This document shows positions 43,363 through 54,797 of a stretch of DNA of 64,000 bases, piece by piece. The notes under the pieces are model-generated. The model had not been told where the DNA came from. It did no database searches and saw only the letters and a list, made by a program, of their open reading frames with translations. Each line of letters begins with the position of its first letter. Position 1 is the first letter of the stretch. A program made the translations under genes and the position numbers. This DNA comes from Candidatus Altimarinota bacterium (GTDB lineage Bacteria; Patescibacteriota; Gracilibacteria; UBA4473), in contig JAIPIF010000003.1 of the NCBI GenBank assembly GCA_021734785.1, positions 1 to 64,000 of the forward strand, read 5' to 3'.

Positions 43363-43425
43363 ATCCCCTCTTCTCTGTCATCTGTTCTTTTTAATTTAAA
43401 ATTGTTCTTTGTTCTTTGCCATTTA

Positions 43426-51459: not shown

Positions 51460-51503
51460 GAGCCCGGACTTGGCGAAATGAGCTGCGGATCAAGTCCGGG
51501 CTC
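51460..51503. repeat. REP-like palindrome R7 upstream of hrcA
   Basis: 13-bp perfect arms GAGCCCGGACTTG and CAAGTCCGGGCTC around an 18-nt loop. Confidence 0.75.
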
Positions 51504-51552
51504 GGAGGAACAAGACTTGCATTCTGGCAGAAATCGTGGCAGACTGCCAACG

Positions 51553-52266
51553 ATGAAAGAACGCACACTCGCTGTCCTGGCTGCTCTGGTGGAAGATTTT
51601 GTCGAAACCGCCTGCCCCGTGGCGAGCAAACATCTGCTGGAAGCCCACGATTTCAAGGTTTCCTCTGCCACCATCCGAAACGAATTTGCGCTCCTGGAAG
51701 AGATCGGATACATCCAGTCCCCGCACGTGTCCGCGGGCAAAATGCCGACCGAAAAGGGATACCGATTTTTTGTGAACGAACTGATGCAAAACGCTGAGGC
51801 CGAAGAAAAACAGGCCTTGATTATTTTTGAAAAGCATTTGGAGAAATATAAGTTTGAGCGCGCACGGGAAAAAGTCTTCGATGCGGTGCGACTGATGGCT
51901 CAGCTGTCGGGAAATGTGGCGTTTGCCACGATCGATCGGGACGAGACGTTTTATCTCGGGCTGTCCAATGTCCTCCGTGCCCCCGAATTTATCCGCAATC
52001 CTGAGCAGGCAGTCCGAATCGTCGAAATCTTGGAGGGACGGATCCCCTTTCGCCAATTGCTCAAAAATTTGGAGCTCCCCAAAAACCAAACGAAGATTTT
52101 TATCGGCGAGGAAAATATCCTGAACGAAGTCAACAGCTGCTCGCTGATTGTGACGCCGTTTCACGCAAAAAATATCTCCGGTCACTTGGGGATCCTGGGA
52201 CCGATGCGAATGCGGTACGGGTTTAACCGGGCACTGGTGTCCAACGCTCGCGAGATGGCACAGTAG
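51553..52266 (+). CDS. hrcA: heat-inducible transcription repressor HrcA
   Basis: 237 aa from ATG at 51553, where family homology starts. N-terminal winged helix: LLEAHDFKVSSATIRNEFALLEEIGYIQSPHVSAGKMPTEKGYRFFV. The C-terminal GAF-like part is present but short; typical HrcA has about 340 residues. It binds CIRCE operators; a matching site lies before clpB at 55353-55379. A TTGCAT-17-CAGACT precedes the gene. The normal hrcA-grpE-dnaK neighbourhood is absent. Confidence 0.92.
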   Translation: MKERTLAVLAALVEDFVETACPVASKHLLEAHDFKVSSATIRNEFALLEEIGYIQSPHVSAGKMPTEKGYRFFVNELMQNAEAEEKQALIIFEKHLEKYKFERAREKVFDAVRLMAQLSGNVAFATIDRDETFYLGLSNVLRAPEFIRNPEQAVRIVEILEGRIPFRQLLKNLELPKNQTKIFIGEENILNEVNSCSLIVTPFHAKNISGHLGILGPMRMRYGFNRALVSNAREMAQ

Positions 52267-52309: not shown

Positions 52310-52338
52310 TTGATTTTTTGAAAAACTTCTGGTACAAT
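52310..52338 (+). promoter_or_regulatory. promoter of the putative non-coding RNA
   Basis: TTGATT (52310-52315), 17 bp, TACAAT (52333-52338) with a TGG extension. Predicted start near 52345. Confidence 0.6.
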
Positions 52339-52344
52339 GCCCCG

Positions 52345-52668
52345 TTCTTTTGCAATTCCACCAAAAAAGAAGGCCAGGAACCTCTTGATTTTGTGCTCCC
52401 CTGTGGGAACTGCGAAATCAGGACCGCTCCTTGCCTTCCTCTCCTGAGTGAAATCTCTCGATTTCCTCCTCTCCAGAGAAAGACAGAGAACGATTATCCT
52501 CGTCCTTTCTCAACACCACAAAAATTTTTTCAAACAAAAATACAAACAATCGAGTTTGCCACCAACTCGAAAATACCGGTGGCGTGGAATGCAAAAAGGA
52601 GCAATCAAAGCGCGGATCACACCTCTGATTTCCTTGCGAAACCACGTGCAAATGATCCGCGTTTTTTT
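52345..52668 (+). ncRNA. putative structured RNA of about 325 nt, unknown family
   Basis: It has its own promoter and ends at a strong terminator, but no plausible gene: the longest frame across it has no family features. Internal pairing is visible, e.g. TGATTT with AAATCA around TCCC/GGGA. It does not show the P4 motif of RNase P, the tRNA-like ends of tmRNA, or the SRP apical loop. Its size and its isolation before virB4 suggest a stand-alone RNA or a long leader with attenuation. Confidence 0.5.
52611..52668 (+). terminator. rho-independent terminator of the putative RNA
   Basis: CGCGGATCA and TGATCCGCG, 9-bp perfect arms around a 33-nt loop with an inner TTGC/GCAA stem, followed by seven T. 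Confidence 0.85.
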
Positions 52669-52716: not shown

Positions 52717-52745
52717 TTGCAATTTGTCTCTTTTTTTGGTACAAT
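52717..52745 (+). promoter_or_regulatory. virB4 promoter
   Basis: TTGCAA (52717-52722), 17 bp, TACAAT (52740-52745) with a TGG extension; about 30 nt of leader to the ATG at 52782. Confidence 0.7.
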
Positions 52746-52781: not shown

Positions 52782-54797
52782 ATGCGTGATCCAAAAACTT
52801 CTGCGCCAGAAACAGGCAAAGTCACCATCACCAACACCGAAGAAAAGGGCTCTCCGGGGTTTGGCCTCGTCGAAGGGCTGAAGGAAAAATGGGAATCCCA
52901 CGTGCAGAAAAACAAAGACCAGGCTGCCAAACGAGAGGGAAAATCTGCGACTGACGAAAAAGCAGAAAAACGCCGACTCGAAGAGTTTTTTGACAACTAC
53001 GATCCCAAACGCGACCGCAAAAAACTGACCAAAGAAATGCGTCACCGCATTGTAGAAGCGGAAAAAATGTATCAAGAGGGCACCGCGTCGATCAAAGACC
53101 TGATCGCCCCTACGTCGATGGAGATCAACCCCAACCGCATGAAGCTCAATGGCATGCTGGTGCGATCATTTTTTGTGTTTAACTATCCCCGGTTTCTCGA
53201 AGCCAACTGGCTCAACCAGCTGATCAATTTTGATGTCACCATGGACATTTCGATGTTTGTGTATCCGGGAGATTCCACGCACATCACCAAAATGCTCCGG
53301 CGCAAGGTCGCAGAAATGATGTCCACCAAACGGCTCAATGCCAAGCGAGGTCTGGTCAATGACACCTCCCTGGACACGGCGCTCGAAGATGCCGAACAAC
53401 TCCGCATCGATTTACAAAGAGGCACCGAACGATTTTTTCATCTGGGAATGTACTTCACCCTGTACGGAGAGGACGAAGAAAAACTCCAGGCCGCGACCAA
53501 ACAGCTGGAAACGCTGCTGGGCGGGCAGATGGTGATGATCCGTGCGGCAGATTTTCAGGTCGAACGGGCGTTTGACAGCACGCTCCCCCAGGCGACCGAT
53601 CTCCTGGACGTCGTGCGCAACATGAACACCGGTCCCCTCTCCACCACCTTCCCGTTTGTCTCCAATTCGCTCACTTCCAATGCCGGAATTCTGTACGGAC
53701 TCAATCGACACAATAATTCGCTAATTATTTTTGACCGATTTCAATTGGAAAATGCCAATGAAGTTGTCTTCGCCAAATCCGGTGCCGGAAAATCGTACAC
53801 GGTCAAACTGGAAGTCCTGCGTTCACTGATGCTGGGCACAAACGTCATTATTTTGGATCCAGAAAATGAATACGAAACCCTGACGCGAACCGTCGGTGGC
53901 ACCTACATCAATGTTTCGCTCAACTCGCCCCAGCGTATCAATCCGTTTGACCTCCCCGATCCCCTGGACAATGAAGAAATGACCGCCCAGGAGCTCATCC
54001 GCGAGGCCGCGATCAGCCTGTCAGGGCTGATGAATTTGATGCTCGGGAAACTCACTCCCACCGAGCAAGGGCTGATGGATCGAGCGATTTTGGAGGCGTA
54101 CGAACTCAAAGGCATCACGGAAAAAACCGAAAATCCACACGAGTACGAAATGCCCACGATGGTGGATCTGCAGAATGTCTTGGCGTCGATGGAGGGCGCA
54201 AAAGAACTGGCTGTCCGCCTGGAACGATTTACCAAAGGCACGTTTTCCGGTCTCTTTTCCGATCAGACAAATGTCGATCTCAAATCTGGCCTGGTGACCT
54301 TTTGTATCCGCGACCTGCAGGACGAACTCCGTCCGATCGCGATGTACATTTTGCTCAACTTCATCTGGGGACGGGTGCGCTCGGAACTGAAAAAGAGAAT
54401 GCTCGTGATCGATGAGGCCTGGAATCTCGTGCAGTACGAGGATTCGGGACGATTTCTCCATGGACTGGTCAAACGCGCGCGAAAATACTACCTGGGGATT
54501 ACCACGATTACCCAGGATGTGGAGGACTTCCTCGACTCGCCCTGGGGCAAGCCGATCATCACCAACTCCTCGCTGCAAATTTTACTTCGTCAGGCCCCGG
54601 TGGCACTGGAAAAACTCCAAAAAGTCTTCAATCTCACGGAACAAGAACGATATTTGCTGCTCAACTCACAGGTCGGACAGGGGCTTTTCTTCGCCGGAAA
54701 CCAGCACGTCGCAATCCAGATCATCGCTTCGTATCTGGAAAATAAGATCATCACCACCAACCCCGAAGAGCTGATCGCCCAGAAAAAGTCAGCCTAA
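52782..54797 (+). CDS. virB4: VirB4/TraC-type conjugation-like ATPase
   Basis: 671 aa from ATG at 52782. The N-terminal ~110 residues are charged and unlike other VirB4 proteins. Then a TraC/VirB4 pattern: Walker A AKSGAGKSYTVKLE (about 338-351), ILDPENEYETL, and Walker B RMLVIDEAWNLV (about 540), with the TQDVEDFL and ITNSSLQILLRQ motifs. It drives type IV secretion or pilus-like systems. No VirB6, VirB8, VirD4 or pilin gene is adjacent. Single-copy VirB4 genes like this are common in CPR. Confidence 0.9.
   Translation: MRDPKTSAPETGKVTITNTEEKGSPGFGLVEGLKEKWESHVQKNKDQAAKREGKSATDEKAEKRRLEEFFDNYDPKRDRKKLTKEMRHRIVEAEKMYQEGTASIKDLIAPTSMEINPNRMKLNGMLVRSFFVFNYPRFLEANWLNQLINFDVTMDISMFVYPGDSTHITKMLRRKVAEMMSTKRLNAKRGLVNDTSLDTALEDAEQLRIDLQRGTERFFHLGMYFTLYGEDEEKLQAATKQLETLLGGQMVMIRAADFQVERAFDSTLPQATDLLDVVRNMNTGPLSTTFPFVSNSLTSNAGILYGLNRHNNSLIIFDRFQLENANEVVFAKSGAGKSYTVKLEVLRSLMLGTNVIILDPENEYETLTRTVGGTYINVSLNSPQRINPFDLPDPLDNEEMTAQELIREAAISLSGLMNLMLGKLTPTEQGLMDRAILEAYELKGITEKTENPHEYEMPTMVDLQNVLASMEGAKELAVRLERFTKGTFSGLFSDQTNVDLKSGLVTFCIRDLQDELRPIAMYILLNFIWGRVRSELKKRMLVIDEAWNLVQYEDSGRFLHGLVKRARKYYLGITTITQDVEDFLDSPWGKPIITNSSLQILLRQAPVALEKLQKVFNLTEQERYLLLNSQVGQGLFFAGNQHVAIQIIASYLENKIITTNPEELIAQKKSA

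Follow-up and report, generated by a model that had tools for sequence, protein, structure and literature searches.

A putative gene for a structured non-coding RNA with a boxA-like start in one family of Gracilibacteria

Between an hrcA-like gene and a gene for a VirB4-like ATPase, the genome of a Candidatus Altimarinota bacterium contains an interval that looks transcribed and has no evident coding sequence. What does this locus encode? An initial annotation of the window (the whole stretch of 64,000 nucleotides that was analysed) had described an isolated transcript, and had seen in it either a new RNA or a leader of virB4. The home genome (G000) measures about 1.06 Mb and is estimated to be 77% complete. 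We conclude with good confidence that the locus encodes, in a stand-alone gene, a structured and presumably stable non-coding RNA (ncRNA) that is restricted to one Gracilibacteria family and probably subject to boxA-type transcription. This confidence covers the identity of the RNA and its mode of transcription and stops short of the proposed action in trans.

The locus carries a predicted promoter and terminator of its own. The −35 element TTGATT (52310-52315) is separated by a 17-nt spacer from the −10 element TACAAT (52333-52338), which is preceded by TG. At the other end, CGCGGATCA (52611-52619) and TGATCCGCG (52653-52661) form a perfect 9-bp stem immediately followed by seven T residues (52662-52668). 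These signals and the transcript of about 325 nt that they delimit were all found where the initial annotation had placed them, as was a second promoter belonging to virB4. The terminator is absent from the output of the consensus scanner because its 33-nt loop is too long for the scanner. Promoter-like matches are frequent per se (6 found versus 2.4 expected); the weight of the ncRNA promoter therefore comes from its conservation in relatives and not from the motif. The locus and its surroundings are organized as follows.

51478-52266, forward strand: upstream neighbour, hrcA-like gene, outside the ncRNA (PF01628; TIGR00331 at 184.7 bits, slightly below the cut-off of 197.2)
52310-52338, forward strand: promoter TTGATT-17-TACAAT with TG before the −10 element (same promoter type upstream of the ncRNA in relatives)
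52344-52668, forward strand: predicted non-coding RNA of 325 nt (fold z of −7.6; homologues in 16 of 20 family genomes)
52717-52745, forward strand: separate virB4 promoter TTGCAA-17-TACAAT, outside the ncRNA (from the sequence)
52782-54797, forward strand: downstream neighbour, VirB4-like ATPase, outside the ncRNA (PF19044; NF045971 at 381 bits)

The RNA does not correspond to a family described so far. None of the 4227 models of Rfam 15 matched it at the gathering threshold and no match at a relaxed E-value was plausible, which settles in the negative the Rfam check proposed in the initial annotation; at the gathering threshold, the window contains three tRNAs and nothing else. A plasmid search gave no match, and a literature search retrieved no description of such an RNA. 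Its size, stability, single copy and shared boxA-like start would suit a known housekeeping RNA (RNase P RNA, tmRNA, SRP RNA or 6S RNA), and the RNase P RNAs of the Candidate Phyla Radiation (CPR) can be very divergent (PMC8172020). That it is a divergent version of one of these housekeeping RNAs is nevertheless very unlikely. RNase P RNA is encoded by a separate gene in 7/7 genomes and tmRNA in 8/8, a 6S-like RNA is found elsewhere in 6/8, and RF00010, RF00023 together with ARAGORN, and RF00013 are all unmatched at the ncRNA locus. As for SRP RNA, RF00169 and RF01854 detected none in eight family genomes, which speaks in favour of this identity, but they are equally unmatched at the locus, and no domain-IV-like element is conserved because the hairpin apices differ among members. 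Moreover, the SRP-type GTPase P-loop motif was not found in the home genome, of which 999 kb were searched. With neither the RNA nor the GTPase motif found, these bacteria may have lost the SRP pathway or have it in a very divergent form. We therefore rejected all four identities on the basis of separate genes or unmatched models, in line with the initial reading, which had seen no RNase P, tmRNA or SRP signature. In the home genome, a stretch of about 4.5 kb (C1:178755-183285) contains the 6S-like RNA, the RNase P RNA and the 16S gene.

A small protein is hardly credible as the product, and the same holds for a chance sequence. A frame of 156 codons is open in the window, but its 156-aa translation has no Pfam match, in agreement with the earlier failure to fit a protein family to any frame. 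Pfam searches and the comparison of frames among 16 members disclosed no conserved protein frame: stop-free segments change frame across genomes, and the stretch leading to and through a pseudoknot near the 3' end is closed in all three frames in 7/16 members. For this last reason we also rejected a frameshift at a slippery sequence, for which the A-rich linker and the pseudoknot might have been taken. The compensatory changes reported below exclude a chance sequence.

To find homologues, we collected the regions upstream of virB4 in the 20 genomes that make up this Gracilibacteria family here and then searched with two models, R1 for the 5' core and R2 for the pseudoknot and terminator. Sixteen of the 20 genomes have one detectable copy each. 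R2 was built from seven members, and it recovered the nine others with E-values of 0.003 to 2e-10 for the stretches searched. In a congener, the ncRNA lies upstream of virB4 and is 70% identical, promoter and most of the transcript included. The size varies from 250 to 560 nt in relatives. The G009 copy has a large insertion. In those of G003, G006, and G013, the 5' core is missing or unrecognisable, whereas the pseudoknot and terminator are retained. No ncRNA was detectable in G004 (73% complete), G014 (95% complete), G016, and G019; neither model matched in the last two, and the G019 contig stops at the virB4 start. Among the other 333 genomes of the class, R1 and R2 identified no credible copy: most of the weak matches were read, and these lie in unrelated sequence without the ncRNA anatomy. 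Three other matches to the promoter region in G001 and G002 (L004, L010, and L012) contain no Rfam RNA and nothing resembling the ncRNA. Seven pattern matches in viral contigs were not taken as copies because R2 matched none of them and R1 gave a single weak partial match (12.5 bits).

The members share a common anatomy. From 5' to 3', the promoter is followed by a boxA-like GUUCUUU, the 5' strand of the closing helix P1, hairpin P2, GCCUUCCUCUC, hairpin P3, GAGAGAAAGACAG and hairpin P4, and then by an A-rich linker, an H-type pseudoknot with an A-rich third loop, the 3' strand of P1, the terminator hairpin and a U-run. The elements are located as follows in the home genome.

52344-52350, forward strand: boxA-like GTTCTTT, which opens the predicted transcript 5 nt downstream of the −10 element
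52350-52361, forward strand: 5' strand of closing helix P1, TTGCAATTCCAC, pairing with 52584-52594
52369-52438, forward strand: long hairpin P2 (GAAGGC...GCCTTC), from the fold and from covariation of its arms between genomes
52433-52444, forward strand: conserved sequence GCCTTCCTCTCC (alignments; model R1)
52446-52468, forward strand: hairpin P3, from the sequence (a similar hairpin of different sequence in relatives)
52473-52486, forward strand: conserved sequence CCAGAGAAAGACAG (alignments)
52476-52511, forward strand: hairpin P4 (GAGAAAG.../...CTTTCTC), from the fold
52531-52550, forward strand: A-rich unpaired linker CAAACAAAAATACAAACAAT, conserved in the aligned members
52551-52583, forward strand: H-type pseudoknot, from covariation and by hand in 13 genomes; stem 1 CGAGTT/AACTCG (52551-52556/52564-52569), stem 2 GCCACC/GGTGGC (52558-52563/52578-52583), A-rich loop 3 (52570-52577)
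52584-52594, forward strand: 3' strand of P1, GTGGAATGCAA (sequence, fold)
52611-52668, forward strand: terminator with a 9-bp stem that covaries, a 3-bp CAC/GTG apical stem and T7
52618-52626, forward strand: terminator apex region CACCTCT (C[A/C]CCTCT in 15/16 genomes, CACCTCG in G001)

In the members, the apical stem of the terminator hairpin is C(A/C)C/G(U/G)G; the hairpin also has an A-rich bulge, and its loop begins with CUCU.

Several measures support this fold. The sequence from 52345 to 52668 folds at −104.3 kcal/mol (z = −7.6), and 0/100 shuffles are as stable. When the last 70 nt, which contain the terminator region, are removed, z is still about −6.3, and it ranges from −4.1 to −9.1 across all 16 homologues. 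The pseudoknot has a covariation score of 0.689 compared with 0.268 ± 0.040 in shuffled alignments, none of 500 reaching the observed value, and slid registers score 0.14-0.28. Eighty percent of the cells of the pseudoknot alignment are paired, and in stem 2 each of the seven pairs has changed on both sides. As the shuffle control leaves the relatedness of the genomes in, we added an alignment-free test in which pairing between strands of the same genome is compared with pairing across the 16 genomes. Cognate strands are strongly preferred for stem 2 (p = 7e-10), the terminator (p = 5e-9) and P2 (p = 7e-6), and the support for P1 is weak (p = 0.022). RNAalifold returned no structure for the MAFFT alignment of the 5' core because MAFFT misplaces the hairpins there. 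The comparisons show that the predicted fold is conserved through compensatory change; both the internal pairing and the compensatory variation for which the initial annotation had called are thus present. Taken with the absence from Rfam and the anatomy shared by 16 genomes, this strong compensatory change supports its suggestion of a new RNA.

The family is new by every test applied, and its general kind, a stand-alone structured RNA, is already known. OLE, raiA, GOLLD, and ROOL are large structured bacterial RNAs whose function is partly known or not known. They too have an elaborate conserved fold, are stand-alone and are clade-restricted; the ncRNA differs in matching no Rfam 15 model.

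The other suggestion was that the RNA forms the 5' leader of virB4 and attenuates its transcription by a switch between terminator and read-through. The ncRNA lies upstream of virB4 in 13/16 genomes and ends in a strong terminator, and GAGAG is able to pair on either side in several members, CCAGAGAAAGACAG being predicted to pair upstream (CUCUC) or downstream in P4. However, in 13/13 adjacent cases virB4 has a −10-like element of its own between the terminator and its start, and it is often almost leaderless. The terminator stem is kept everywhere and no conserved anti-terminator was found; nor does the RNA pair preferentially with the 5' region of its own virB4 (p = 0.33 and 0.48). The ncRNA is one gene away from virB4 in G003 and elsewhere in two genomes, near a tRNA gene and a frame reading like a YrdC-type protein in G002 and between frames reading like rpiB and metA in G005 (frames named by eye). 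Attenuation is largely refuted by the virB4 −10 elements, the unlinked copies and the lack of specific pairing, and we regard it as improbable. The description of the transcript as isolated needs one restriction, the ncRNA gene usually adjoining virB4. Across the genomes compared, conservation of the predicted RNA is independent of neighbouring genes, virB4 included.

The 5' end of this stand-alone RNA associates it with the stable RNAs of the cell. GUUCUUU is found 5 nt after the −10 element in most genomes and directly follows it in G009. At the ncRNA start, G[ACT]TCTTT is exact in 12/16 homologues, has one mismatch in three and is absent from G006; its background frequency is 0.00055 per base. 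A boxA-like element likewise opens the RNase P RNA in 7/7 genomes and is present in the tmRNA leader in 7/8 and in the 16S leader of 13 of the 14 family genomes read (G002 being the exception) and of two of five others. None of six 6S RNA starts has it. A search of 999 kb of the home genome found 447 promoter-like sites, and 11 of these are followed by a boxA-like element, compared with 0-6 for permuted control motifs. Downstream of these 11 lie tRNA genes in eight cases, rpsJ (S10/NusE) in one and the ncRNA in another, and one site is probably due to chance. The eight tRNA units and rpsJ, all preceded by a promoter and a boxA-like G[CT]TCTTT, are carried by C1, C6, and C9 of G000. The eleventh site, at position 43396 of the window, looks like a chance site in a repeat. 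A short dispersed sequence like TTTGTAATCTGTAATTGTTCTTTGCC occurs there and at C1:8082, C1:285212, C5:23659, and C6:104270 of G000; these occurrences are intergenic and possibly form a repeat family.

The gammaproteobacterial boxA consensus is GYTCTTTAANA, and boxA precedes rpsJ in some genera (PMC5725501). A partial literature search retrieved no publication that describes boxA at genes for RNase P, tmRNA or tRNA. The boxA-like start in common with the core stable RNAs argues that the ncRNA is probably transcribed like a housekeeping stable RNA and is probably an abundant working RNA. We infer with good assurance that GUUCUUU would recruit NusB-S10(NusE). The modified RNA polymerase responsible for rRNA would thus transcribe the ncRNA too, as it apparently does the tRNA, RNase P RNA and tmRNA genes of these bacteria, and the ncRNA would be abundant. 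The BoxA-dependent NusB/S10 units of Escherichia coli (rRNA, suhB; PMC5725501) also have the element a few nucleotides into the transcript, as does rpsJ in the home genome; here, in contrast, the carrier is a new non-coding RNA and the boxA-like element is predicted from sequence. The RNase P RNA (RF00010), tmRNA (RF00023) and rRNA of the same genomes are likewise stable and structured, and their transcripts have a boxA-like G[C/T/A]UCUUU at the 5' end or close to it. The ncRNA is unrelated to them in sequence and structure, has a separate gene and lacks the RNase P and tmRNA cores.

Could the boxA-like element be the very purpose of the RNA? Its position right at the 5' end, and the presence of another on rpsJ, would suit a sponge for NusB-S10 that tunes stable-RNA synthesis. 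We consider this unlikely: other boxA-like elements are carried by RNAs with other jobs, the element is absent in G006, and a sponge would leave unexplained the pseudoknot and the terminator loop. As these are the most constant parts of the RNA, its working part is probably the 3' pseudoknot-terminator module. Such an RNA might act in trans, with the folded body and pseudoknot forming a platform. The terminator hairpin would stay on the RNA, and its pyrimidine loop could contact a partner.

Two kinds of partner can be envisaged. The ncRNA may form the core of a stable ribonucleoprotein in which a protein, rather than another RNA, is bound by the CUCU loop and the pseudoknot, a plausible reading that falls short of probable. 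It fits the boxA-like start common to RNase P RNA, tmRNA and rRNA, a loop of fixed sequence on variable stems, and a lineage without a Shine-Dalgarno signal that an antisense loop could target. In addition, H-type pseudoknots whose third loop is A-rich commonly serve as sites of protein or tertiary contacts. The protein partner is so far only putative. Alternatively, the nearly invariant C(A/C)CCUCU loop on the terminator hairpin suggests a trans-acting antisense regulator pairing with G-rich RNA, like RepG of Helicobacter pylori, which acts on G-rich targets through a C/U-rich terminator loop (PMC8295292). RepG-type small RNAs are also intergenic, with their own terminator and a conserved pyrimidine stretch as loop. 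In contrast, the ncRNA is larger, with a pseudoknot and long hairpins, no target was found upstream of genes of the home genome or at virB4, and it belongs to a lineage without a Shine-Dalgarno signal. Among 223 genes called by a simple longest-frame rule in 324 kb of the home genome, Shine-Dalgarno motifs are not enriched upstream of genes, which weakens the case for an anti-Shine-Dalgarno antisense loop: GGAG precedes 3/223 genes versus 12 in a control window, and AGAGGTG 0/223. No pairing preference for virB4 was found either, and we hold the antisense role to be possible but less likely than not. A protein partner is at least as likely as a G-rich RNA partner.

Translation initiation in this lineage may have other peculiarities. 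In the home genome, a −10-like TACAAT is often located 3-18 nt before the start codon, which suggests that many mRNAs are leaderless. Most of the 16S 3' ends read in the family differ from the ACCUCC anti-Shine-Dalgarno sequence (e.g., ACCGCC, ATCGCC, ACTGCC) and run into a short GCC...GGC hairpin; CCTCC is retained in G010 and G016, and the canonical sequence is found in several other families of the class (ends read at L177, L178, L183-L190, L199, and L201).

The initial annotation had not reported the pseudoknot, the conserved loop of the terminator or the boxA-like start. The most useful lead is the link between the stand-alone ncRNA and the stable-RNA genes marked by boxA. Tentatively, we propose a new housekeeping RNA, the core of a ribonucleoprotein, that would share boxA control with rRNA, tRNA, RNase P RNA and tmRNA. 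The lineage concerned has a mostly noncanonical 16S anti-Shine-Dalgarno end, and its SRP RNA is not detectable. Few structured RNAs have been described in the CPR, and the tiny genomes of these bacteria retain little that they could do without. When a family with genomes of about 1 Mb maintains an RNA in single copy, and apparently transcribes it in the manner of the core stable RNAs, this points to a basic function that has gone unrecognised. The distribution of the element further suggests that boxA may mark a whole stable-RNA regulon in this lineage (rRNA, tRNA, RNase P RNA, tmRNA, rpsJ and the ncRNA), which would offer a way to seek further non-coding RNAs in uncultured bacteria.
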